DNA of 64,000 bases from Chryseobacterium gilvum. GTDB taxonomy: Bacteria > Bacteroidota > Bacteroidia > Flavobacteriales > Weeksellaceae. Each line of letters opens with the position of its first letter. The stretch's first letter is position 1. The stretch lies in the NCBI RefSeq assembly GCF_025628965.1, contig NZ_JAOTEN010000001.1:248001-312000 (forward strand). Reading direction: 5' to 3'. The notes under the pieces were generated by a model. That model was given only the letters and a program-made list of their open reading frames with translations. It was not told the origin of the DNA and did no database searches. The position numbers and the translations under genes are program-made. Shown here piece after piece: positions 7,240-38,430 of the stretch.

Positions 7240-7911
7240 TTACATGCTAGAATTGTAGTAGCCGTTTTCTACACAGAAGCGAATCAGGTGCAGTTTTGTT
7301 TTCAGCCCCAGCTTTTCTGTAAGCCGGTTGATATACGTATCTATGGTTCTGGTACTGAGGTTGAGTTTTTCCCCGATTTCTTTATTGCTGAAGCCTTCAT
7401 AGCAGAATTTCATTAAAATGATCTCGGTAGAAGACAGCTCTTCCTGGCTTTTCTTCTGCCGGTCCATATACTCCTGAACGGCTAAAGGCTGTTCCTGCCA
7501 TTTTTGCGTATAGGCTTGATAATCAAAGGTATTGGATGCGATATTGCCTTTAATGATATCGCGGATGATATGGCTGTTTTTCTGACAATAGTATACATTT
7601 GGGATTTTGGCAATAATCTCTGCCATATCTTCCTGATACGTTCCGGAGTAGGTAATGATGGGGGTTTCTGTGTTGGTTTTACGAATAAATTTTATGGCTT
7701 CTACACCGCTGAGAACGGGCATAAACAGTTCTATAATAAAAACATCTTCCTGTCTTCTGTATATTCTGTTGATCAATTCGTGACCGTTATTGCAGTCATT
7801 CAGAAGCATGTAAAACGGATTTTCCAAGAGCATTTTGATCATTATTTTTTTAAAATAAAAATCACTGTCAGCGATAGAAAAACGAACCATACTGGTTAAT
7901 GTTTTGCTCAT
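7240..7911 (-). CDS. Orphan LuxR/NarL-type response regulator with Glu at the phosphoacceptor site
   Basis: A 223-residue protein with a receiver-like domain (about 1-120) and a LuxR-type helix-turn-helix (about 155-220, GFSNKEIGEKLNLSTRTIDTYINRL). The receiver keeps acidic residues near the start (Asp15, Asp17), a Thr/Ser in ITYSGT and the conserved Lys at 111. At the place of the phosphorylated Asp it reads FIIELFMPVLSG, with Glu61. A Glu there often mimics phosphorylation, so the protein may be active without a kinase, and no kinase gene is adjacent. It is transcribed divergently from tssO, which makes it the likely regulator of this T6SS locus. Its targets are inferred, not shown. Confidence 0.85.
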   Translation of the reverse strand: MSKTLTSMVRFSIADSDFYFKKIMIKMLLENPFYMLLNDCNNGHELINRIYRRQEDVFIIELFMPVLSGVEAIKFIRKTNTETPIITYSGTYQEDMAEIIAKIPNVYYCQKNSHIIRDIIKGNIASNTFDYQAYTQKWQEQPLAVQEYMDRQKKSQEELSSTEIILMKFCYEGFSNKEIGEKLNLSTRTIDTYINRLTEKLGLKTKLHLIRFCVENGYYNSSM

Positions 7912-7950
7912 TCTAATTGTAATTTGGTGTGGTAGAAATAAATTTCGTCA

Positions 7951-8027
7951 CTAAAGTATGAAAATCTTTCTAAAGTGTAAATTAAGTTTACGCAAAAAAT
8001 AGTAAATATGATTATAATTTAATTTTG
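7951..8027. promoter_or_regulatory. Divergent control region between response regulator and tssO
   Basis: A 15-bp dyad GTAAATTAAGTTTAC (7977-7991; 5-bp perfect arms) lies between a near-consensus -7 box for the regulator on the minus strand (TACTTTAG, 7958-7951) and a consensus -7 box TAATTTTG for tssO (8020-8027). CTAAAGT is repeated at 7951-7957 and 7970-7976. The layout suggests shared control or autoregulation. Confidence 0.5.
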
Positions 8028-8076
8028 AGGTAAGTATATTTTTTTATATTTTCACATTTCAAACCAAATCACAATT

Positions 8077-8607
8077 ATGCCTACGAATAGAGAAAAGAAA
8101 TTAAACACTTCTGATGTAAGAATTGGCATCTGGAAATTTATTCTTTCATTCATAATACTGTCTGTGGTATCCTTCTGTGCAGTTTTTTTCTTTTTTAAAA
8201 GCTATGATATTCAGCGAAAAGGCATTCAGAAAGAAATAGATGACTATAGAAATCTGCTGAGCCGCAACGAATTACTAAAAATTCAGGTAGACAGTATTCA
8301 GTACAGAATGACCCTGTTAGACATCAATAAGGTAGATAATGACATTCTTCTCCGCAATTATATCATGGAAAATGTACGCGATGCAAAAAAAATAATGGGT
8401 GCAGACAGCGCTCAGAATTTTAAGCATTATTCTATTCTTTTAAAGAAAATAGAGCCTATGCTGGCTTTAAAATCCCAGATTATCATGGTTTCAAATAAAG
8501 AGCAGACCGCAATACGCGATCTCAATGCCTGTATGGGAAAAGTTGACCGGGTAAATCATCAGCTCCGTGTAGATCCTACCAGAAAATTTACAGGAAGAAG
8601 AAGGTAA
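8077..8607 (+). CDS. tssO: T6SSiii membrane component TssO
   Basis: A 176-residue protein with one N-terminal transmembrane helix (about residues 19-40, FILSFIILSV onward) and a Lys/Asp-rich, probably helical periplasmic part containing heptad-like stretches. It is first in a run of four genes (tssO, P, Q, R) whose order and sizes match the envelope genes unique to Bacteroidota T6SS. In those systems TssN/O/P/Q/R replace the TssJLM membrane complex. The assignment rests on topology, length and gene order; there is no catalytic motif. It is preceded by the divergent promoter region and followed 18 bases later by the next gene. Confidence 0.72.
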   Translation: MPTNREKKLNTSDVRIGIWKFILSFIILSVVSFCAVFFFFKSYDIQRKGIQKEIDDYRNLLSRNELLKIQVDSIQYRMTLLDINKVDNDILLRNYIMENVRDAKKIMGADSAQNFKHYSILLKKIEPMLALKSQIIMVSNKEQTAIRDLNACMGKVDRVNHQLRVDPTRKFTGRRR

Positions 8608-8625
8608 TAGTTAAAAGTAAAATTT

Positions 8626-9144
8626 ATGCAGGGACAAATTACATTATCCAGAAAAGAAAAGCATTATCAGTTTGTTTACCTGATATTGATGCTTATTGCA
8701 GCTATTGTACTTTTGAGTATTATTTTCCTCAAAGGGTTTGAATCTCCATTTTCTTCGGCAGATGTGACTTCTCTTCAGACGCTTGAGCAGAAATCAAAAT
8801 TCGACAATCAGCAGAAGGTGGTTCAGAAGTTATTAGATTCTACGTTTACCAAAATTACCAAGCTTACCGAGGAAGTGCCACAGCCTTTTGAAGAAAACGA
8901 AATCAAATATGGCATTAATGATATTCAGAATTCTTTTGAAAATGCGAATGTCAATGATTTGAGAAAACAGGCATATCCACAGATCGCCCAGTTTTATAAA
9001 ATGTATTTTGATGACAAAAAACGGATCTCTAAAATCACGGAAAATATAAAAAACTTCGAAAAACAGTTTGAAGACTGCTCCATCGGCTTCAAAGAGAAAA
9101 AACAAAATCTGATACAGCGCGAGAATGCATTAAAATTAAGGTAA
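8626..9144 (+). CDS. tssP: T6SSiii membrane component TssP
   Basis: A 172-residue protein with an N-terminal basic stretch, a single transmembrane helix (about residues 16-35) and a periplasmic part that is mostly charged and helical, ending in a probable coiled coil (KNFEKQFEDCSIGFKEKKQN). It resembles the preceding tssO product in layout, so the two may assemble together across the inner membrane and periplasm. The name TssP rests mainly on its place between TssO and a PKD-domain protein in the conserved T6SSiii order. There is no enzymatic motif. Confidence 0.65.
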   Translation: MQGQITLSRKEKHYQFVYLILMLIAAIVLLSIIFLKGFESPFSSADVTSLQTLEQKSKFDNQQKVVQKLLDSTFTKITKLTEEVPQPFEENEIKYGINDIQNSFENANVNDLRKQAYPQIAQFYKMYFDDKKRISKITENIKNFEKQFEDCSIGFKEKKQNLIQRENALKLR

Positions 9145-9182
9145 ATGCAATTCAGCCGCACCACACACCACAAAAATTAACT

Positions 9183-10094
9183 ATGAACTATTTTGAAAAA
9201 AACAAAAAAAACATCATTATCGGTGTCATTGCCACTCTGCTCATTGCCGCTTTGGTCGTATTGTGGCTTCAGAAAAAAGTGATCCATTCCGCAGATGATA
9301 TTGTAGGAGTGGTATATCCCGCTTCTCTTTCGGTAGGAGATACCCTGAACTTCGGGGACAAAACCCAGTTTGCAAAATTCAAAAAATGGGATTTCGGAGA
9401 TGGCACGACTTCAGATAAAGACAAAGGATATCATTTCTACAACAAACCGGGATATTATAACGTAACTTTAATCATTGATAATAAATACTCGAAATCTTTC
9501 CCGATCCTGGTTTCGGCGAGAGGTCTCCCTAAACCGAAAGACAGTATTGTTTCCATTACTACCATTGATGCCCAGACTCAGGCGATGCAGTACGAAAACG
9601 TACAGTTCAGGGCTATTTCTGATGCCAATCAGTTTACATGGAGATTCGGGGAGTCCGGAAATATAGATTCTAAAGATAAACTGGCCATTTATTCCTATAA
9701 AAAACCCGGAAATTATACCATTACCCTATATACGGATAAAGACGCAGAACCCATCATTCACAACATAAAAATCCTTCCGGCTTACGACGCCTTAGATGAT
9801 GAAGAGGTGAGTGTAGACGATGCATACGAAAAGATGGATAATGATTTTAAATATCACCTGCAGCAAATTGCCAACGGAAACAGTTTTAATACCCATTACA
9901 ATTATCTGCTCGGTAAATATCTGTGTAACAATGAAAATACCATCGTACAGGTAAGTGACAGCAAAGTAAATAATTTCTATCTGTATTGTGCAGGTCTTCA
10001 GTTTGATAAAAACAATGTGATTCAGACTGTGAAACTAAATTTTGACGATGCACAGAACTGTGTCACCAAAGTAGACATTAACCAAAGTAAATAA
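9183..10094 (+). CDS. tssQ: T6SSiii PKD-repeat periplasmic component, TssQ-like
   Basis: A 303-residue protein with an N-terminal membrane anchor (about residues 11-29) and two PKD-like beta-sandwich repeats. The first holds WDFGDGTTSDKDKGYHFYNK and the second a diverged WRFGESG with YSYKKPGNYTITLY. A C-terminal alpha/beta domain of about 100 residues follows. PKD folds usually mediate protein-protein contacts outside the cytoplasm, which fits a periplasmic linker in the secretion envelope complex. Gene order (O, P, this, R) supports TssQ. Domain content is seen directly; the letter is inferred, since naming of the small Tss proteins is easy to swap. Confidence 0.62.
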   Translation: MNYFEKNKKNIIIGVIATLLIAALVVLWLQKKVIHSADDIVGVVYPASLSVGDTLNFGDKTQFAKFKKWDFGDGTTSDKDKGYHFYNKPGYYNVTLIIDNKYSKSFPILVSARGLPKPKDSIVSITTIDAQTQAMQYENVQFRAISDANQFTWRFGESGNIDSKDKLAIYSYKKPGNYTITLYTDKDAEPIIHNIKILPAYDALDDEEVSVDDAYEKMDNDFKYHLQQIANGNSFNTHYNYLLGKYLCNNENTIVQVSDSKVNNFYLYCAGLQFDKNNVIQTVKLNFDDAQNCVTKVDINQSK

Positions 10095-10141: not shown

Positions 10142-12541
10142 ATGAAAAACAAATTTCCTCTCGCGGCATATTACATAGGTTTATCGGTACTGCTTACAAG
10201 CTGTCAGGTAAGGCTGCCTTCAAAAAAAACGCCTGAACCAAAACAGTACGGGCAGATTGATAACGCATCTGTTGTGGATGGTTTTCCTAAAAAATCAGTT
10301 CCGTGGATTGCGATTTCAGACAGATCCAGAAATACGGCTTATTTAGATAAAAGTGATGAAAAATCGTACAAAGAAGTTAAATTTTTAGAACCTTTAATGG
10401 TCTTAAAAAGCAGAGACGGAATGGTTAAAGTAGCCGAATATATTCCTGATGCTTTAATGAAAAAAGTATCTTCAAAATCTATAAAAACCTACGGCTGGAT
10501 TCCGGAATCTGATCTTCTTTTATGGAGCAGCGCTTTAAAAAGCGAGAAGACAGGATATCCTGTAAAGGTAGCCGTAGTGCCGAGTAACAGTGATGTCGTA
10601 AGAAGCGCAGAGAGATATTATAAAAATGATTCGATCATGGTGTTTAATTCTCCAAGCCTGATCGAAGCGGCCGATGTCAAAATTCCCAACGGACAGATGG
10701 TGTATGTCTATAAACAGGCAGAAAATAACAAACGATTTTTGGTGGGTAGAAAGCCAACAATTGATATGGACAGTATCAATTCCGGTTTGTACGGCTGGGT
10801 AAGTTCCAACGTCATTTCAGCATGGGGAGAACGTTCCGCCGTTAAAATGAAAAACACAACCGGTGTTAAAGAAACTTCTCTGGGAATTCATGAAGGTTCT
10901 CCGGGCGGCACAGATGCCGAAAACAGAATAGCAGTGCTTCTTACAGACACCGACAAAAGAACGCCTCTGGAAAATATCTTCCCGGTAAATCTGCCTTTAA
11001 ATGAGCCTGCAACCCCGGATTCTAAAACAAAATACTTCACCAATATTTTAGATTACAGTAAAAATTATGTGTATAACGTTTTAGGAGAGCCTATTTACTT
11101 TGATCGTTACCGTGAGATTACAGAAAAAAATAAAAAAGCCAATATCGTTTTTGTTCTCGATGTAAGTGCTCCAAACGCACCGTATGCACCGATTGTAAAA
11201 TCACTTTTGCAGGATTTGCAGCTTCGTTTTGAAAAGCCTTCTTACTTTAATACTATAAAATACGGAGTAGTGCTTTATAAAAACAATCCGTGCGGAGAAA
11301 ATGTTGCGCCATCACCGTTGAGTACAGATTACAGCAAAATCACCACCTTTATTGATCAGAAAGTCAATGAGATGAATTGCCAGAGTACAGGAGGAAACCA
11401 GCCTGTCAACGAAGGTTTAATGGCTGCCGGAAATATGCTCTCCGAAGTTCCGGATGAAACCAACATCGTCATTACTATTGGGACATCGGCAAACAGAGAC
11501 GGGAATATGTATGGTGTGATCAATTCACTTACACAGGCACAGGCTAGAGTGATCATGTTTCAAACCAGTGCAAGATCTTCAGATACCTACAATGATTTTG
11601 TCTTGATGGCAGAAAATGTAGTGACCAATACTGCAAAAAATGTTGCCGAGCTCAAGAAACAAAAAATCATCAATCAGAATGATGTATTAACAAAAAATAA
11701 TTTTAGCCTTGTGGAAGGCGATGCCGGATTTTACTCACTGGATTTTCCAAAGCAAAGCATGTCTCAGGGATTTGTAATTTTTCCTAAAAAAGGCGATATT
11801 ACTACACCGGGATTCTTAAAAAAATCGGTTGACAGCTTAATTTCTCAGGTAACACTAGATAATACGAGTATCGATCAGTCATTGAATGATTATTTTCACT
11901 CTTCGGTAGGCGCAGGAAGAACTGATGTTGATGTTAAATATAAATATCTGTATCCGGGACTTACAAATCCTGTTCCTGCAGGCATCGCAGCACAGCTGAT
12001 TAATTATGGAAACCCGTTTTTGGTGAAAGGATACATTCCTAAAGAATTGAAAGATTTTAAACCAGGGCTTGAAAAAGGGATCCTGATTTCAGAAACAGAA
12101 TATGACAATCTTAAAGCATTTTATACTGAAGTATATGATAATACAGGTGCTGCGAGAACAGATTTTAATCAGGCAAGAGCAGTTAAAGAATATATTAAGC
12201 TTCTTAAAAAATACAATCCAACCCTGAAATTTTTAGATAAAAGCGATTTATACGAGCAGCCGATGGCATATGCTGTAGGAATCAGTACGGGTTTTGATAA
12301 TTCTGAAGAAGAACTGATGTCAAATTATAAGCTTAAAGGCTGGAAAAAATCTAAAATTATTACTGCCGAAACGGTGCATACGTATTTCCGACATTACAAA
12401 GATTTGGCAGAAAGAATGCTTACCCACAGAAACAATCCTGCAGTAAAAATAAAACAGAACGGGCAGGAATTTTACTGGCTGAATGAATATTTTATGCCGA
12501 CCATGCTTCCGGTAGAAGAACCGGAGTATACTCAACATTAA
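10142..12541 (+). CDS. tssR: T6SSiii outer component TssR (lipoprotein with VWA-like region)
   Basis: A 799-residue protein with a signal peptide ending in the lipobox LTSC, so it is probably a lipoprotein on the periplasmic side of a membrane. Residues of about 340 onward carry a von Willebrand A-like core (NIVFVLDVSAPNAPYAPIVK, where DVSAP resembles the MIDAS start, and later NIVITIGTSANRD). An N-terminal SH3-like region may be present (TYGWIPESDLLLWSS, and again YGWVSSNVISAW). Size and position at the end of tssO-P-Q-R match TssR of Bacteroidota T6SS, thought to be part of the envelope-spanning complex. A 21-bp terminator hairpin follows directly. Confidence 0.8.
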   Translation: MKNKFPLAAYYIGLSVLLTSCQVRLPSKKTPEPKQYGQIDNASVVDGFPKKSVPWIAISDRSRNTAYLDKSDEKSYKEVKFLEPLMVLKSRDGMVKVAEYIPDALMKKVSSKSIKTYGWIPESDLLLWSSALKSEKTGYPVKVAVVPSNSDVVRSAERYYKNDSIMVFNSPSLIEAADVKIPNGQMVYVYKQAENNKRFLVGRKPTIDMDSINSGLYGWVSSNVISAWGERSAVKMKNTTGVKETSLGIHEGSPGGTDAENRIAVLLTDTDKRTPLENIFPVNLPLNEPATPDSKTKYFTNILDYSKNYVYNVLGEPIYFDRYREITEKNKKANIVFVLDVSAPNAPYAPIVKSLLQDLQLRFEKPSYFNTIKYGVVLYKNNPCGENVAPSPLSTDYSKITTFIDQKVNEMNCQSTGGNQPVNEGLMAAGNMLSEVPDETNIVITIGTSANRDGNMYGVINSLTQAQARVIMFQTSARSSDTYNDFVLMAENVVTNTAKNVAELKKQKIINQNDVLTKNNFSLVEGDAGFYSLDFPKQSMSQGFVIFPKKGDITTPGFLKKSVDSLISQVTLDNTSIDQSLNDYFHSSVGAGRTDVDVKYKYLYPGLTNPVPAGIAAQLINYGNPFLVKGYIPKELKDFKPGLEKGILISETEYDNLKAFYTEVYDNTGAARTDFNQARAVKEYIKLLKKYNPTLKFLDKSDLYEQPMAYAVGISTGFDNSEEELMSNYKLKGWKKSKIITAETVHTYFRHYKDLAERMLTHRNNPAVKIKQNGQEFYWLNEYFMPTMLPVEEPEYTQH

Positions 12542-12614: not shown

Positions 12615-12633
12615 AGTACCAAACATCACAAAT

Positions 12634-13137
12634 ATGTCAGATCAATCGTCATCTCATGACGGCAAGCATCTTGTCGTTCAGAAAGGGAAGTGTCAGTGCA
12701 ATCAAGGGAACCAGTTTCCGCAGCACAAAGTTACGACCCATCAGAAACATTACTGGAATGATTCAGATGGCAGTGCAGATTATCTTGCTGTTACAGAAGA
12801 TGATTTGCAGTTTACTCCTCCCGGTCCCAGTTTTGGACAATGCAAATTAAAACCTTCATCAGGAGGATATCTTCCATGTTCGTATGCTCCTGCCGGTAAA
12901 TGGCAAAAAACCTATGAGAAGATAAAAATCATGGGCAAAAGTTGCGTTACCGAAGTTTCTGAGCTTCAGTGTGTTGTAGGTGGAAAAATCACGATCAAAG
13001 ACCACGGTCAGCGTGGTGAAATCAGCAAACAGAATGTAAAAAAAGCAGATCCAAAAAAAATCCGCAACATCAATCCGCTTGTTGATATGAATGACTTTCA
13101 GGAAACCATAATGGAAAGCGAATTAGACGCTTATTAA
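12634..13137 (+). CDS. PAAR-like T6SS spike-tip protein (DUF4280)
   Basis: A 167-residue protein of the DUF4280/PAAR-like type. It would form the sharp conical tip on the VgrG spike and carry an effector. The family-like pattern is visible: an N-terminal VVQKGKCQCNQGNQF segment, PPGPSFGQCKLKPSSGGYLP with Cys before a Pro/Gly-rich loop, and a C-terminal beta-rich part with MGKSCVTEVSELQCVVGGKI. It lacks a signal peptide, as expected for T6SS cargo. The next gene, starting 20 bases downstream, is a very large peptidoglycan hydrolase, so this is probably the loading adaptor for that effector. Confidence 0.8.
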   Translation: MSDQSSSHDGKHLVVQKGKCQCNQGNQFPQHKVTTHQKHYWNDSDGSADYLAVTEDDLQFTPPGPSFGQCKLKPSSGGYLPCSYAPAGKWQKTYEKIKIMGKSCVTEVSELQCVVGGKITIKDHGQRGEISKQNVKKADPKKIRNINPLVDMNDFQETIMESELDAY

Positions 13138-13156
13138 CCCTTAAACAATTTCTGTG

Positions 13157-16100
13157 ATGTCAACAAAAAAAGGAGTTTCAAAAATATCAGGAAATCCTGC
13201 GCCGAAAGTAGGAGAAGAAACCTTATACACCATAACAGACTGGTATTCTGCCACACCGCAAAGTGAGCGAAATCCTGCAGCTGTAACCTGGGAATTATTT
13301 AAAAAGCGCTCAAATGGAAGCTTTACCACCACCAATATCAGAAAAACAGGTTCCGGAAATTTTACTTTCGGAGAAGTGGCGCAAAAACATACCTATCGTT
13401 TGGAAGCTTATCGGTATGATCCCGAAGGAAGCGGCTCAAGTACCATAGATATTACACCTCAACCCACTGCTGTGCCGGTCATCAATAAAGTGGAATTGCG
13501 GTATGTTGACGATTCGCCGGGAACAACATTCAGTTATACGGAAAAACTAAGAGCCAATGCCCAATGTGTACATCTTACAGGAGAAAAATTAACGTTTACG
13601 CTTTGGGAAGATGATGCTGCCGGAGACGGTCACAACGCAAATAATCTAGTCATTGAGAGCAAACAGGCTACCGTAGGATCAAACGGACAGGCCACCGTAG
13701 AATTTGTGCTTTCCAGAGCAATGATGCAGAAGGCAATGCAGGGAGAATCTGATCCGAAACAGCTTGAATTCTACGTAACAGTAGAATATTATCAGAACAG
13801 AAAACATGCAAGTGATAACGTAAATGTTCAGAATCCTTCAGCAGCAAATCATCCTGCTCCTCAAAATACTCCTGCAAACAGACCATCTGCAGCTCCATCT
13901 TCACCGCAGCCGGCTGTAAATAATGTTCCGCCAAGAGCACAAGGTTCGCCTGCCGCTTCAAAGCCTGAGTCTAAAAAAGAAGAAAAAGGAATTGTAGATA
14001 CGGTAACAGATTACCTGAGAGAACTTTGGGACTGGGCAGAATCTAAAGGAACCATAAAACCTGAACAAAAACCGGCCAATCAGCCCGCTGGAGGAAAAAC
14101 AGTAACAACGGTTAATGATTCCGGGGCGGAAGATATTCTGGATGCTTACTTTGCAAAAAAGGAATATACAAAGCAGACCGGCGAAGCAGACGGAACCCAC
14201 GAATATACTTTCGGAGGAAGAAAATCTGGCAATCAAACCGGAACGGCAGCTCAGAAAGAAACGGTAGCCAATACCATTTTAGGCAAGGTTCAGGATGTTT
14301 TAAAAAACAATAAAAAATACACGACAAAAGAAGCCATTATTCAGTCGCTTACAGCAAATGAATACGGTAAAGATACGGCAGATCATAAAAAAGTAACTTT
14401 CCAGACGTTCAAATTAGGTCCGGAATTTAAAAAAGTGAACAGTGCTCCTCTGGAAGCAAAACTGTATCTGGTCGCAAGAACTTCAGGTCTTAACGGAAAG
14501 CAGGCGACATTAATCATCAAAGAAAAAGACGGCTTGATTAAAGGCTCTGCAGGAGCCGTTTTACCGATTTTGGAAATCACAGAGGCTCAAATGGAGCAAA
14601 CCTCCACTTCGGGAGAAGTTCCGGGAACTGAAAAATCACAATTTATAGCGACCATCGAAAACGGATTGGCAAAAGTTCCTATTCATCTAAGACCAAAATC
14701 GGATGATGATCTTAAAAAATGGAAAGAAAAATTAAGCAAAGGAAAAGAAGACGGCGAGTACACTTATAAATTCGGAGGAGCGAATAACATTACTGATGAA
14801 AACAGCAAAAAAACAGTTGCCGAAACCATACTCAGAAATGCTAAAGCGGGAAATGCAGCCAACCCGAAAATTGCGGATGGAAAAACGGCCTACGTAGATG
14901 ACATTATTAAAGCACTCGAGATAAAAAATTATCAGAAAGACGAGACGGTCAAATTTAAGCTGTATAAAAAAGAAAAAGAACTGCTCTTTATTCAAGCAAA
15001 AGCACAGGGAGAAAAGCAGCACGATAAAGAATTCTTAAAATCTGAAGGTGCATATTTCATTATTGGGAAAAACTGTTTCTGCAACCGGGATATTACCTTA
15101 ACCGAATTTGAATCTATTCTCAGAAAATTAAGGGAATCAGAAGGTGTAGCCAATAAAACCGGTGTTTTTTATGCGGATAACTGTCCTTTAACCGATAAAA
15201 CCAATGCAAGTTTCCTGGCTAAACTGAATGAGAAATTTAAAGAGTTTGAAATTAATACCTGTATCCGTAAAATCCATTTTCTGACGCAGGTATACCATGA
15301 AACCGATAAATTCCAGACGACGTTAGAATATGCAAACGGCGTTAAATATGATCCAGGCCATCACGATGATGCGGTCAACAACGGAAATACTGTCGCGGGA
15401 GATGGTGAAAAGTACAAAGGAAAAGGCTTGATGCAGCTTACCTGGAAAAACAATTATTCTAAATACAAAGGATATTCAGGAGAAGATGTGGTAGCAAGTC
15501 CGCTTCGGGTTGCGCAGGAGCTAGATCTCGCCGTAGATTCCGCAGGATGGTTCTGGACACAGGGTAAAGTTCTGAGCGCAGGATCTACCTGGACAGTTCC
15601 AAACACCTCTTACAGTCAGCATGATAATTCTACGGGAAAACAGTTTCCGAAAACACAGATTACCAATGGCACAGTTTCGTATGCCACTATTAATATGAAT
15701 CTGCTTGCCGATAAAGATTACATCGATACTATAAGCTGGCTCGTGAACGGCGGCGGAAACGGAAGACAGGAAAGGAGAGATTATTTGAAAGAAATTAAGA
15801 AAATCTTTAATTATCCTGCAGATTGTGCCAATGCTGGAGGAGCTTCCGGAGGAAACAGTTCGGTAACCATTCATTTTGTGGGAGATACCGCGGTAGAGTC
15901 AGGTATTTCCCAGAGAACCAGAACCATTCTTGAGGAAGTAGGTGCGGCGTCTAAAAACAATGATATTTATATCACAAGTACCGCCAGAACTCCTGCCGAA
16001 CAGGCAAGAATTATGTATGGAAATATCGCAAGAACCGGAGCTGCTGAGCAAAAAGGAATTTATGCGAACGCGGGTGATCAGGTGATTGACGTATACACAG

Positions 16101-16342
16101 CAGGACAGAATGCACATAAAACACAAGCGCAGATTATCCAGGAGATGGAGGCTAAAATTAATGAGCTTGGTCCCTCTTCGGTATCCAAACATTTGGCTGA
16201 TCCCACCGTGATGAATACATTCGATGTATCTATCCAAAGACTCACCAATCCGAATGATTTTAAAACCGAAATGCAGCGCAGAACAGAGCTTCATAAATTA
16301 CTCGATGAAAACGGAGCGTACCATATTGAAATAAACCAGTAA
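13157..16342 (+). CDS. Large T6SS effector with GH19-like and M15-like peptidoglycan hydrolase domains
   Basis: About 1061 residues without a signal peptide; ATG 13157 is chosen over the GTG one codon upstream. An N-terminal region (about 1-230) looks like a T6SS-linked delivery region rich in beta strands. A Pro/Ala linker follows, then two copies of a diverged repeat (around 325-420 and 525-610). About 645-890 resembles a GH19 chitinase/lysozyme: catalytic-type Glu in FLTQVYHETDKF, then KGKGLMQLTWKNNY. The last 150 residues look like an M15 D,D-/L,D-peptidase: ITSTARTPAEQARIMY, SKHLAD with His, FDVS with Asp, and YHIEI with His as likely zinc ligands. It would cut both glycan and peptide parts of a rival's wall. 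The next gene is the likely immunity protein. Confidence 0.78.
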   Translation: MSTKKGVSKISGNPAPKVGEETLYTITDWYSATPQSERNPAAVTWELFKKRSNGSFTTTNIRKTGSGNFTFGEVAQKHTYRLEAYRYDPEGSGSSTIDITPQPTAVPVINKVELRYVDDSPGTTFSYTEKLRANAQCVHLTGEKLTFTLWEDDAAGDGHNANNLVIESKQATVGSNGQATVEFVLSRAMMQKAMQGESDPKQLEFYVTVEYYQNRKHASDNVNVQNPSAANHPAPQNTPANRPSAAPSSPQPAVNNVPPRAQGSPAASKPESKKEEKGIVDTVTDYLRELWDWAESKGTIKPEQKPANQPAGGKTVTTVNDSGAEDILDAYFAKKEYTKQTGEADGTHEYTFGGRKSGNQTGTAAQKETVANTILGKVQDVLKNNKKYTTKEAIIQSLTANEYGKDTADHKKVTFQTFKLGPEFKKVNSAPLEAKLYLVARTSGLNGKQATLIIKEKDGLIKGSAGAVLPILEITEAQMEQTSTSGEVPGTEKSQFIATIENGLAKVPIHLRPKSDDDLKKWKEKLSKGKEDGEYTYKFGGANNITDENSKKTVAETILRNAKAGNAANPKIADGKTAYVDDIIKALEIKNYQKDETVKFKLYKKEKELLFIQAKAQGEKQHDKEFLKSEGAYFIIGKNCFCNRDITLTEFESILRKLRESEGVANKTGVFYADNCPLTDKTNASFLAKLNEKFKEFEINTCIRKIHFLTQVYHETDKFQTTLEYANGVKYDPGHHDDAVNNGNTVAGDGEKYKGKGLMQLTWKNNYSKYKGYSGEDVVASPLRVAQELDLAVDSAGWFWTQGKVLSAGSTWTVPNTSYSQHDNSTGKQFPKTQITNGTVSYATINMNLLADKDYIDTISWLVNGGGNGRQERRDYLKEIKKIFNYPADCANAGGASGGNSSVTIHFVGDTAVESGISQRTRTILEEVGAASKNNDIYITSTARTPAEQARIMYGNIARTGAAEQKGIYANAGDQVIDVYTAGQNAHKTQAQIIQEMEAKINELGPSSVSKHLADPTVMNTFDVSIQRLTNPNDFKTEMQRRTELHKLLDENGAYHIEINQ

Positions 16343-21104: not shown

Positions 21105-22436
21105 ATGAGAACCAGAATCGTTAAAGGGAAAATATTCGAGAGTATTGAGAAAGATTACAATCTATACTCTGAGAAAGATATTGTCTTCAATGCTGCAGAA
21201 AGAGTGGAAGAAAAAGGGGGAAGCAAAGGGGTAAGTTACGGAAGTGCTTCAAAACCGCCTCCACCTACCACAAAAGCAAAGTGTGTCATTCATTTCAGGC
21301 CCGATCAGAAGTACAAAGATTCTCCGTCTTTTGGGTTCGACTGGATCAAAGTTGCGGATACAGGATACGCAGGAGACGTTTGGTATTTAAATTACGTCGG
21401 AAAATACAGAAATCCTGCCGATGCTACAAAATTACAGCAGATCTACGATAACGGTGTTTTTAAGAAAAGCGCTGCGGAATTCACCAAAATAAGCAGCACA
21501 TTTGAAAAGCTTTTACTGGAAGCTAAGAAAAATGCCGGAAAGTCTGATTATATGTATTATGTGCCAAAAATGACACTCAGAAAAAATAAAGAGGCCAGTT
21601 TAATCCTGAAAATTAAAATTGACGAATCACCCAAAGAATTGAAATTTGAGTATGATAAAGCCGTTTTTGAAATCATTGATTATAAAAATGACGAGATTCA
21701 CGATAAAAGTAAGGGCAGCAGAACAATACCGATAAAAATTAAATGCAAAGGTGTGTTTAACGTCCAGAAAAGCATTACTATTTTAGCCGATAAGCAGGTT
21801 TGCGGAAAGCTGAATGTGTTGCCTAATAATTTCAGTTACAATATAAAAACCGTTTTCGTCACCATTACCACAAAAATCAATGGTACCGTACAAACCGGAA
21901 CGGTGAGTGCCGCTGAAAAGATAAAACTGAAACAGGTATTGGCGCAGTCGTATGTTGAAAGTACAGCGGAAGAAGACAGTTTAGACTTAACAGGTTTTTT
22001 CACTTCTACATGGTTCAACTGGTGGTTTACACAGAAAGGTCAGGTAAAAACACATGAGCTTCATAAATATCTGAACGAAAAAATACACGCCAAAGACAGT
22101 AAATACAAAAATTATTATAAAGTATATGTTTTTGGATCGGCTTCCGGTGGTCTCAATGGGATTGCGGAAGATGTAGGCCATGTGAAAAGTGCCATTGTTT
22201 TTCCGGGAAGAATTTCCAGCGATCCGAGTATGGGAAGTTCAGTTCACGAGATTTTGCATGCGATAGGATTGTATCATACTTTTGATAATGATTCCGGTTT
22301 TACGTTTGAAAGAGCGGTTTTGGATAATGTGATGGATTATTCTCACTGGAACCATATCAACAGAATATCTACCACCCATTGGCAATGGAAATTGTTGCAG
22401 AATAATTTAAGCGGTTACAAAATACCTGTAAAATAA
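21105..22436 (+). CDS. VgrG-linked metzincin-type metalloprotease effector
   Basis: A 443-residue protein without signal peptide. The C-terminal third holds HEILHAIGLYH at residues 381-391, the extended zinc motif HExxHxxGxxH with Glu382 as catalytic base. A Met-turn candidate follows 19 residues after the last His (VMDY, Met410). These are the two defining features of metzincin peptidases. The N-terminus (MRTRIVKGKIFESIEKDY, then CVIHFRPDQKYKD, FGFDWIKVADTGYAGDVWY) resembles openings that I recall from other Bacteroidota T6SS-linked proteins and may be a delivery domain. It is 11 bases downstream of VgrG and is followed by an overlapping lipoprotein gene. The target protein is unknown. Confidence 0.77.
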   Translation: MRTRIVKGKIFESIEKDYNLYSEKDIVFNAAERVEEKGGSKGVSYGSASKPPPPTTKAKCVIHFRPDQKYKDSPSFGFDWIKVADTGYAGDVWYLNYVGKYRNPADATKLQQIYDNGVFKKSAAEFTKISSTFEKLLLEAKKNAGKSDYMYYVPKMTLRKNKEASLILKIKIDESPKELKFEYDKAVFEIIDYKNDEIHDKSKGSRTIPIKIKCKGVFNVQKSITILADKQVCGKLNVLPNNFSYNIKTVFVTITTKINGTVQTGTVSAAEKIKLKQVLAQSYVESTAEEDSLDLTGFFTSTWFNWWFTQKGQVKTHELHKYLNEKIHAKDSKYKNYYKVYVFGSASGGLNGIAEDVGHVKSAIVFPGRISSDPSMGSSVHEILHAIGLYHTFDNDSGFTFERAVLDNVMDYSHWNHINRISTTHWQWKLLQNNLSGYKIPVK

Positions 22437-35508: not shown

Positions 35509-37230
35509 TTACGATTCAGCCAAAGGCAACATGAAATAAAAAGTACTGCCCTGATTGACAGCGCTTTTTACTCCGATTTCTCCGTTTTGTTTTTCAATGA
35601 AATTTTTAGAGATTGCCAAACCCAAACCTGTTCCGTTCTGATGTTCTCCGGGAACCTGAAAATAACGGTCAAAAATCTGGCGGTGGTATTTTTCATCAAT
35701 TCCGGAACCGGTGTCTGTAATGCTGAACTGTATGAAGGAGCTGATTTTTTCAACAGTTACAGTGATATTTTCATCCTGAAAAGAATGTTTAATCGCATTG
35801 CTAAGAAAGTTATTGAGCACCCAAACCGTTTTATCAAAATCTGCCAAAACAGCATCATTGTCATCCAGAATATACGATGTGGTGATGGAGATATTTTTCT
35901 GTTCGGCAAGCTTTTCTACATTTTTGACGGAAGCCTGAAGCAGGTCTTTCGGAAGGCAGCTTTCTATTTTTAATTTGATGTTTCCGCTTTCTACCTGAGA
36001 AAGGTTGAGCAATTCTCCGGTAATATCCAGTAAACGCTGTCCGTCTTCGTTAATGCTTTTCAGGAGCTCTTTCTGTTGCTCATTCAATGCACCGAATTTT
36101 TCATTTTCCATCAGCTGAACGCCCATTTTTATGGCAGCAATAGGGGTTTTAAGTTCGTGGGAAATGGTGGCAATAAAGTTGGTTTTTGCAAAATCAAGCT
36201 CTTTAAAAGGGGTGATATTCCGTAACAAAATCACTTTGCCGATGTATTTTTTTTCTTTTTCGCCTGTTTTTACAATATTGATGGGGACAATCTCCTGCTC
36301 AAAATAATTTTCTTTGTTATCGGCTGCAATTTTAAGTGAGTCTTTCGAAGGATGATCGATATTTTTTAATAATTCTCTGATCAGATCATTGTTTACGGCA
36401 ACTTCGTGCACTGTTTTTCCGATGATTTCTTCCTTGTTGAGGTTGGTGATTTTCAAAGCTTCATCATTGATCATGTAGATAAAATGATTTTCATCCAGGC
36501 CAATTACGGCATCATGCATGTTGTTGACCAGCGTTTCGATTCTTTTTTTATCCATCAGCTGTTTAGAAAGGTTGCTGCTTTCGTATTCTTCGAGTTTTTC
36601 TGCCATGATGTTGAAAGAATTGGCCAGATCATTAAATTCTGCGCTTCCTTTAAAATGCACCCTTTCGTTATAATTTTTATTGGCGATTTGGCGGATGCTG
36701 AACGTGAGCTGGTTGATCGGTTCTGCGATGGTTTGAGGGAGATTAAAAAGTAAAATGAAAGCAATCAGAAAGCAGACCGTTCCTAAACTTACGATCCAGA
36801 ACGTTGCGTTTTCTGCGGTGAGAATGGCGATATCACTTTTCCGTTCAATCCCTTTCATGTTGATAGACATAATCCTGACCAGATCTTCGCGGATGTGTTT
36901 TTCTTTTTCCGTATCGGGAGATTTTAAATAGCTTTCAAAATGAAGGTTAAGGTTTTGGGTGGCTTCTTTTTCTCCAAATTCGGTGAGGTTTTTTTCCTGT
37001 AAAATAGTATTTTTCCTGAAATCCTTAACGGCAATCGCACTGTCGGTTTTTATTTTATCCAAAGCCAGAAGCATATTCTGGGAAAACTCTAAACTGTTGT
37101 AATTGGCAGTAAGAATTTTTTCTGTATCGGTTTTTAACCTGTTGATGTATACCGAACCTATTACGGAAAGTAAAACGATGAGTATAAACAAAATACCTAC
37201 TCCCAATGTGAGTTTAGTTTTGATTTTCAT
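35509..37230 (-). CDS. Membrane histidine kinase of the Kdp locus (separate kinase half)
   Basis: A 573-residue sensor kinase. Two transmembrane helices (about 7-28 and 143-164) enclose a helical periplasmic domain, followed by HAMP, a PAS domain (LVNNMHDAVIGLDENHFIYM), and a kinase core with the H-box ISHELKTP, an N-box FLSNAIKHS, and G-boxes DTGSGI and GTGLGLAI. It begins 2 bases after the KdpD sensor gene stop, so the two are coupled. In most bacteria KdpD is one chain with an N-terminal sensor and a C-terminal kinase; here the halves are separate genes, as seen in Bacteroidota. The likely partner is the sigma54-type regulator at 44908. Confidence 0.85.
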   Translation of the reverse strand: MKIKTKLTLGVGILFILIVLLSVIGSVYINRLKTDTEKILTANYNSLEFSQNMLLALDKIKTDSAIAVKDFRKNTILQEKNLTEFGEKEATQNLNLHFESYLKSPDTEKEKHIREDLVRIMSINMKGIERKSDIAILTAENATFWIVSLGTVCFLIAFILLFNLPQTIAEPINQLTFSIRQIANKNYNERVHFKGSAEFNDLANSFNIMAEKLEEYESSNLSKQLMDKKRIETLVNNMHDAVIGLDENHFIYMINDEALKITNLNKEEIIGKTVHEVAVNNDLIRELLKNIDHPSKDSLKIAADNKENYFEQEIVPINIVKTGEKEKKYIGKVILLRNITPFKELDFAKTNFIATISHELKTPIAAIKMGVQLMENEKFGALNEQQKELLKSINEDGQRLLDITGELLNLSQVESGNIKLKIESCLPKDLLQASVKNVEKLAEQKNISITTSYILDDNDAVLADFDKTVWVLNNFLSNAIKHSFQDENITVTVEKISSFIQFSITDTGSGIDEKYHRQIFDRYFQVPGEHQNGTGLGLAISKNFIEKQNGEIGVKSAVNQGSTFYFMLPLAES

Positions 37231-37232
37231 AT

Positions 37233-38354
37233 TTAAGATAAAATAATAATGTCTATTTGCCTTTCGTTTAATCGGTTCATTAACGTATAAATCCAGCTGT
37301 ATCCGAATATTCCCCGCCAGAATCCGGGATGGGGCTTCCCGATGCAGACGGTGGTGATATGATGTTCGATAACGTATTCCAAAATTCCTTTCTGCAGGCT
37401 GTTTTCTTTTACCCGAATGACTTTGGCTCCCAATTCTTGTGCTAAATTAAAATTATTAATCAAATAACGCTGTTTGTCCAGTGCTATTTTTTCAGGATTT
37501 TCAGAAGGTCTCTGAATATACAAAACCGTCCAAGGACTGTTGTAATAACTCGCCAGTCGTGCCGTTTTCCGGATGATATTTTTCGCTATTTTCTCATTAC
37601 TGCTGATGCAGGCAAGAAATTTTATAGGTTTGAAATGTTCGGTTTTAATTTCTGTTTCTACCTTTTTTTCGACATGAGTGGCCACTTCTTTCAAAGCCAG
37701 TTCGCGAAGCTGCAGAATATGGCCGCTCTGAAAAAAATTGTTCAGGGCGGTCTGTATTTTATCCTTTTTATAGATTTTTCCTTCTTTCAGTCTTGTTAAA
37801 AGCTCATCTGAAGTCAGGTCTATATTCACCACCTCATCTGCAAGGGCAAGAATTTTATCGGGAACCCGTTCTGTAACTTCAATGCCGGTTATTTTTCTTA
37901 CTTCTTCGTTTAAACTCTCAATGTGCTGAATATTCATAGCACTGATAACGTTGATTCCGTTGTCAAGGATTTCTAAAACGTCCTGCCATCTTTTTTTATT
38001 TTTTGAGCCTTCGATATTGGTGTGTGCCAATTCATCTACCAAAACCACTTCAGGATGCGTATTGATAATCGTCTGAAGATCCATTTCCTCCAGGTTTTTA
38101 CCTTTATAAAATGCAGAACGCCTTTCAATTTCAGGAATTCCGTCTACTAATGCGGCTGTTTCTTCACGACCATGCGTTTCGATGTATCCAATTTTTACAT
38201 CCATTCCGTTCCTCAATAATGCATGAGCTTCCTGAAGCATACGAAATGTTTTTCCTACGCCTGCGCTCATTCCGATATAGATTTTAAACTTTCCTTTTCG
38301 GGATTTTTGAATGAGTTCTAAAAAATGTTCAGCTTCTCTTTTCTCGGGCTTCAT
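37233..38354 (-). CDS. kdpD: KdpD sensor domain protein (N-terminal KdpD half with USP domain)
   Basis: 373 residues from ATG 38354; a GTG 27 bases upstream is possible but less typical. It has the KdpD P-loop GMSAGVGKTFRML, the IGYIETHGREET and VLVDELAHTN motifs, then a universal-stress-type domain (about 235-373, LACISSNEKIAKNIIRK, VCIGKPHPGFWRG). No transmembrane or kinase part follows. The family senses potassium shortage or osmotic stress; here it must act through the separate kinase next door. It lies after the porin gene with a repeat element in between. Confidence 0.88.
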   Translation of the reverse strand: MKPEKREAEHFLELIQKSRKGKFKIYIGMSAGVGKTFRMLQEAHALLRNGMDVKIGYIETHGREETAALVDGIPEIERRSAFYKGKNLEEMDLQTIINTHPEVVLVDELAHTNIEGSKNKKRWQDVLEILDNGINVISAMNIQHIESLNEEVRKITGIEVTERVPDKILALADEVVNIDLTSDELLTRLKEGKIYKKDKIQTALNNFFQSGHILQLRELALKEVATHVEKKVETEIKTEHFKPIKFLACISSNEKIAKNIIRKTARLASYYNSPWTVLYIQRPSENPEKIALDKQRYLINNFNLAQELGAKVIRVKENSLQKGILEYVIEHHITTVCIGKPHPGFWRGIFGYSWIYTLMNRLNERQIDIIILS

Positions 38355-38430
38355 TTTTATTTTTTTTAAATGTAAAGTCACAATGAAAGTACTAAATGGT
38401 GTTTTTAAAACATAAAATCTGTTTTAGTTT

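Follow-up and report, generated by a model that had tools for sequence, protein, structure and literature searches.

A candidate T6SS regulator with a predicted pseudo-receiver in Chryseobacterium and related genera

We propose that a gene divergent from the tssO operon of Chryseobacterium gilvum encodes a NarL/FixJ-type transcription factor that is dedicated to the T6SS, carries a pseudo-receiver and works free of a kinase, a reading to which we assign a probability of about 0.6. The gene lies in a window of 64,000 nucleotides (contig NZ_JAOTEN010000001.1, positions 248,001 to 312,000 of the forward strand), and positions given below without a contig are those of this window. The regulator would not be switched by a histidine kinase. 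Its former active site (D15/D17, residue 61, S89 and K111) would form a fixed internal network that keeps the protein able to bind DNA, in line with the proposal made for CmrT of Clostridioides difficile, and its activity would be set by protein amount, autoregulation or a partner. Its targets would be the T6SS transcripts initiated at the tssO promoter and, probably, further ones. The protein is a concrete candidate T6SS regulator common to nine genera, and the natural series of Glu, Asn, Asp and Ser at the acceptor position of an otherwise conserved protein would test the notion that an acceptor Glu means always on.

Results

Features of the locus are collected in Table 1. The open reading frame delimited in a preliminary description of the window stands, and Pfam recovered from its product a Response_reg domain (35.9 bits; cut-off 30.2) followed by a GerE/LuxR helix-turn-helix (HTH) domain (50.4 bits; cut-off 23.5), the order that defines NarL/FixJ-type regulators. 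The solved sequences closest to it are EvgA and other NarL-type regulators (5f64, 8zwn), and the best matches in an NCBIfam search fell far under their cut-offs. In the orthologue alignment, 29 of 66 HTH positions are invariant, as are 35 of 109 in the receiver and five of 39 in the linker (Y134, W138, V145, Y148 and R151). An AlphaFold model of the regulator reached a mean pLDDT of 63, too poor for distance claims, and the internal active-site network is therefore offered as a proposal.

Table 1. Positions in the window of the regulator, its diagnostic codons, neighbouring T6SS genes and leader motifs
Feature	Position	Strand	Basis
NarL/FixJ-type regulator with predicted pseudo-receiver, 223 aa	7240..7911	-	ORF, Pfam, orthologues
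LuxR-type HTH, residues 158-213, most conserved part of the protein	7273..7440	-	Pfam GerE, conservation
Codon of Lys111, invariant	7579..7581	-	Paralogue alignment, orthologue counts
Codon of Ser89, conserved Thr/Ser position, invariant	7645..7647	-	Paralogue alignment, orthologue counts
Codon of Glu61, former phosphoacceptor position (E/N/D/S in orthologues)	7729..7731	-	Alignments, counts
Codons of D15-S16-D17; first acid kept, second lost, D17 invariant	7861..7869	-	Alignments, orthologue counts
Divergent intergenic region between regulator and tssO1, 165 bp	7912..8076	.	
Leader motif before the regulator, degenerate	7919-7928	-	
Leader motif CCAAATCACA before tssO1	8064..8076	+	
tssO-family gene 1 (tssO1)	8077..8607	+	Pfam TssO, 1.3e-18
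tssO-family gene 2	8626..9144	+	Pfam TssO, 1.2e-42
PKD-domain gene, TssP-like (named by position)	9183..10094	+	Pfam PKD
tssR	10142..12541	+	Pfam TssR, TssR_VWA, TssR_C
Leader motif CCAAACATCACA before the DUF4280 gene	12619..12633	+	
DUF4280 (PAAR-like) gene of the T6SS cluster	12634..13137	+	Pfam PF14107

The preliminary description had read a Glu in place of the phosphoacceptor Asp and, around it, an intact acidic pair, a Thr/Ser and Lys111. Glu61 does align with the acceptor Asp, a residue found at the end of strand 3 in canonical receivers, of EvgA, of 4zmr and of canonical paralogues from the same genome. The acidic pair proved only half right: of the two metal-binding acids after strand 1 the first is kept as D15 and the second has given way to Ser16. 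Ser (114) or Asn (13) fills this position in each of the 127 unique orthologue rows that cover it, so the loss is common to the Glu, Asn, Ser and Asp forms. The Lys was correctly called. The conserved Thr/Ser needed correction, alignments to EvgA and to the genome's own paralogues locating it at S89, and both S89 and K111 are present in 127 of 127 unique orthologue rows. Also invariant among orthologues are D17, M64, P65, S68, G69, Y88, C109 and Y108, the aromatic residue three before K111, and the cysteines C40, C109 and C213 occur in 126 of 126. Seven other response regulators were found in the genome, and the six that were readable (all except L008) keep both the acidic pair and the Asp. 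A register in which T87 is the conserved Thr, with the bulky Tyr88 next to it, was rejected on the EvgA and paralogue alignments, which give S89 and a mostly small residue 90; the idea that Tyr88 blocks phosphorylation was dropped with it.

The second acid of true receivers is a direct ligand of the metal ion (PMC12632262), and its family-wide absence would make canonical phosphorylation unlikely even in the orthologues with Asp61. A pseudo-receiver is defined as a receiver by homology without key catalytic residues (PMC12632262), and here the acceptor Asp and the second acid are the ones missing. Because the second acid is always Ser or Asn and the acceptor residue varies, we class the domain, on its sequence, as a predicted pseudo-receiver in which the acceptor drifts and S89, K111, Y108, P65 and G69 stay fixed. 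Receivers without the Asp make up 4%, and Glu accounts for 26% of those replacements (quoted in PMC12548384), so the Glu substitution is in itself ordinary.

The acceptor column reads Glu in 101, Asn in 19, Asp in four and Ser in two of 126 unique orthologues, a set that comprises Chryseobacterium, including its more divergent members, and loci of eight other genera, and that omits the query, its own copy (L001) and one remnant (L156). Within Chryseobacterium 109 of 110 loci have Glu and one has Asp, a count that includes the query's own copy and some duplicates between collections. The residue is nearly fixed in the genus and not in the wider family, and orthologues with a normal Asp, named beforehand as evidence against a permanent phospho-mimic, do exist. 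Asn or Ser occupies the position in 21 further orthologues from genomes that retain the T6SS, which argues against a family-wide need for an acidic acceptor. Mapped on a 128-row tree, the column takes seven changes or more, a minimum valid for that tree, which is a quick one with weak support at many forks and a very long branch to L155; two of the changes are separate Glu-to-Asp reversions within Chryseobacterium (L025, L164). As far as the alignments go, Glu61 is best taken as one of the residues that a decayed site tolerates. These counts weaken the permanent mimic as a leading account; it is possible and not required, since orthologues with Asn or Ser are found at the same T6SS locus.

One genome placed in the same genus (G098) has the locus form of the other genera (L152), with an Asn acceptor, a regulator co-directional with tssO and 65% identity, which suggests a transfer or a misplaced genome.

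The claim that no kinase neighbours the regulator was confirmed: the nearest HATPase_c matches in the genome, C1:227223-227549 and C1:283518-283826, both lie about 28 kb away, and the latter is a kinase in a kdp cluster. The genome holds 28 such matches in total. The earlier view that control is probably not by phosphorylation is supported, as is that of an atypical receiver. We also observed that KdpD appears in the window (35509-38381) as two adjacent open reading frames, one for the KdpD sensor part and the other for a distinct HAMP-PAS-HisKA-HATPase kinase, which adjoin kdpA/C and an NtrC-type regulator gene.

The presence of the regulator tracks the T6SS. Among 246 genomes of the family, regulator and TssR occur together in 118, the regulator only in one, TssR only in none, and neither in 127, with the regulator scored as a match at E 1e-20 or better (119 genomes) and TssR_VWA matches (125 genomes) reduced to 118 by setting aside seven genomes whose sole match was weak (E about 1e-7 to 1e-8). 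The proposed T6SS link is borne out in that an intact regulator and TssR are found in the same 118 genomes. The single exception (G066) carries a decayed remnant, of which the last 86 residues match and which contains two stops. This remnant is part of what appears as a scar of T6SS loss (L156, G066:C22:179000-198900; about 8658-9713), where RNase G and HU genes are left at one flank and a polA-like gene at the opposite flank, with no T6SS gene between. Another orthologue, L155, is on a short contig without T6SS genes.

Outside the family, searches of 296 order genomes (E 1e-30) and of 375 phylum genomes (E 1e-25) recovered no orthologue; both thresholds are strict, and the two sets include family members. 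Three order genomes outside the family have a strong TssR (G466, G458, G318) and eight more an intermediate one (E 1e-10 to 1e-18), the regulator being absent from all of them at E 1e-30. At the loci of the first three (L187, L188, L189), a tssO-like gene directly follows a TssK-like gene with no regulator between, names that rest on resemblance and position. The distribution of the regulator covers nine genera and two gene arrangements around the T6SS, and its close linkage to tssO would help any gene, regulator or not, to co-occur with TssR.

In the first arrangement the regulator is divergent from tssO1, as described for the window and as found in 80 of 80 named Chryseobacterium-type loci (all Chryseobacterium save one MAG titled Weeksellaceae). 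In the second it lies directly upstream of tssO1 on the same strand (23 of 23 loci, from other genera of the family and, in one case, from G098). A TssK-like gene directly precedes the regulator in seven of 17 mapped same-strand loci; this neighbour matches NCBIfam TIGR03353 at 3e-11, under its cut-off, and a Pfam search of it gave no match.

The two tssO-family genes of the window form a tandem pair (8077-9144) in which the first fits the model far less well than the second and may be the TssQ counterpart. Beyond the DUF4280 gene follow Hcp, VgrG-type and ClpB-type genes, the last of which we read as the T6SS ATPase. The cluster also encodes a 1062-aa protein (13154-16342) with stretches that resemble cell-wall hydrolases by eye, likely an antibacterial effector, and a 443-aa protein (21105-22436) with a zinc-protease-like signature, HEILHAIGLYH, seen by eye, possibly an effector.

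An element of the form CCAAA...ATCACA was seen just before the start codon at tssO1, at the regulator and at an unlinked TssG-N-K operon (L205-L216), which consists of a TssG-like gene (sub-threshold in Pfam), TssN (5e-84) and a TssK-like gene. We searched for CCAA-N0-4-ATCAC within 50 nt of the ATG in 1125 leaders from 101 loci, representing 135 protein families. The motif occurred in 59 leaders and in six families, all six being T6SS genes in the sampled Chryseobacterium loci: tssO1 (27/89), DUF4280 (12/31), Hcp (8/56), TssG-like (6/13), TssP (1/46) and the regulator's family (5/143, a cluster that also holds other proteins). The backwards motif occurred in seven leaders and two families, and the complement and reverse complement in none. 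No p-value is attached to this enrichment because three of the six families had served for motif discovery, the loci are T6SS-rich and related species are not independent. In the whole genome, motif plus ATG occurred at 13 sites against one for the backwards control; four of the 13 precede open reading frames of at least 100 aa, two of them T6SS genes and two without a Pfam match above cut-off. Strict matches numbered 0 in 204 leaders of other genera, and the absence of the motif there though the HTH is conserved speaks against the regulator as its binder. We treat the leader motif as a sequence-derived lead for a T6SS regulon.

Three further candidates were rejected. The longer form CCAAACAAATCGCAA gave five matches in the window with up to three mismatches (4.5 expected), and ACCAAATCAC gave four with one mismatch (5.3 expected). 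A direct repeat, TTATGAAA-N3-TTATGAAA, which inspection by eye had picked out in relatives' divergent regions, was set aside: at up to three mismatches it has 11 matches in the window (5.2 expected), none of which falls in 7912-8076.

Discussion

We rank a structural pseudo-receiver controlled by dosage ahead of input from a ligand or partner, and both ahead of a true mimic; the confidences attached to these readings overlap, since a structural lock is compatible with control by a ligand. That a small ligand, oxidation or a T6SS partner, rather than protein amount, acts on the dead receiver or the linker seems possible if doubtful: the invariant cysteines and linker residues would suit such an input, and protein partners as well as direct control have been considered for pseudo-receivers (PMC12632262), yet these residues may be structural and no ligand site or partner was identified in this analysis. 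We consider it unlikely that Glu61 is a true permanent phospho-mimic, which would leave the regulator locked on, the T6SS always activated and control to protein amount only. An acceptor Glu often activates receivers (PMC12632262, PMC12548384), and its near fixation in Chryseobacterium loci with S89, K111 and Y108 kept would fit, but the Asn, Ser and Asp orthologues share the same locus and T6SS, and Asp has returned twice within the genus. Glu mimicry has been disproved in some pseudo-receivers, whose switching is called a mystery (PMC12632262).

Continued phosphorylation, weakly at Glu/Asp61 or at another residue (D17 or Ser89, for instance), through a kinase that is encoded far away or cross-talks, appears very improbable. 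The switch residues S89, Y108 and K111 are conserved, D17 is invariant and the genome's many HATPase_c matches leave room for an unlinked kinase; against this stand the absence of the second metal-binding acid from all orthologues, Asn or Ser acceptors in 21 of 126 and the roughly 27 kb around the gene free of a kinase. Least probable of the readings weighed here is a gene for another function, kept at the locus by linkage and not regulating the T6SS. It draws on the fact that T6SS control is predicted from sequence and gene context, and it has to contend with 118 of 118 co-occurrences across nine genera and two gene arrangements, and with the decay of the regulator once the T6SS is lost.

The preferred reading, a kinase-free pseudo-receiver factor dedicated to the T6SS, can be extended, tentatively, to a joint one. 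The Chryseobacterium T6SS is split over several loci (PMC10781749). One such factor at the tssK-tssO junction might govern the T6SS of a branch of nine genera around Chryseobacterium, its dead active site acting as a structural lock and so leaving the acceptor free to vary, and the leader element CCAA-N0-4-ATCAC might co-control the split Chryseobacterium operons. As a common start-site element ahead of tssO, the TssG-N-K operon, hcp, the DUF4280 gene and the regulator's own gene, it would hold unlinked operons under one control.

A search of the literature on Chryseobacterium, Elizabethkingia, Flavobacterium or Bacteroidota T6SS regulation, in which subscription journals were mostly outside coverage, listed no paper on the regulator, nor on any other T6SS regulator of the group. 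Its neighbour genes belong to the T6SSiii of Bacteroidota with the tssNQOPR membrane complex (PMC10781749), and a regulator at the tssO position is not described in the accessible text of that source.

The most alike system is CmrT of C. difficile, an OmpR-type atypical response regulator that shares with our protein a D-x-D in place of the acidic pair, an acceptor Glu and the retained Thr/Ser and Lys (PMC12548384). CmrT is inferred to be active without phosphorylation, and the proposal is that hydrogen bonds in its dead active site stabilise the active form; E53A by itself had little effect, whereas dimerisation and function were impaired in D9A and K102A (PMC12548384). This mutant pattern agrees with the orthologue family seen here, where the acceptor varies and D17, S89 and K111 are constant. 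The two proteins differ in that the DNA-binding domain of CmrT is OmpR-type and that of our regulator LuxR-type, CmrT is co-transcribed with a normal regulator in a kinase-containing system whereas ours has no nearby kinase, and CmrT is without the Pro at D+4 that P65 provides here.

A further comparison is with AtvR, of Burkholderia. It likewise misses one acid, has an Asp-to-Glu acceptor and keeps the Thr/Ser, the Lys, Tyr at K-3, Pro at D+4 and Gly at D+8 (PMC12548384). AtvR belongs to another organism and regulon, and the likeness is one of description, in which a T6SS link is absent from the accessible text (PMC12548384). EvgA and other NarL-type regulators share the domain order of our protein, but EvgA has Asp at the position aligned with Glu61. 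Kinase-free pseudo-receiver regulators appear to be a known kind and a family dedicated to the T6SS an undescribed one; a Glu acceptor alone is ordinary, and it is the one-to-one link with the T6SS together with the acceptor series that makes this regulator a good test case.
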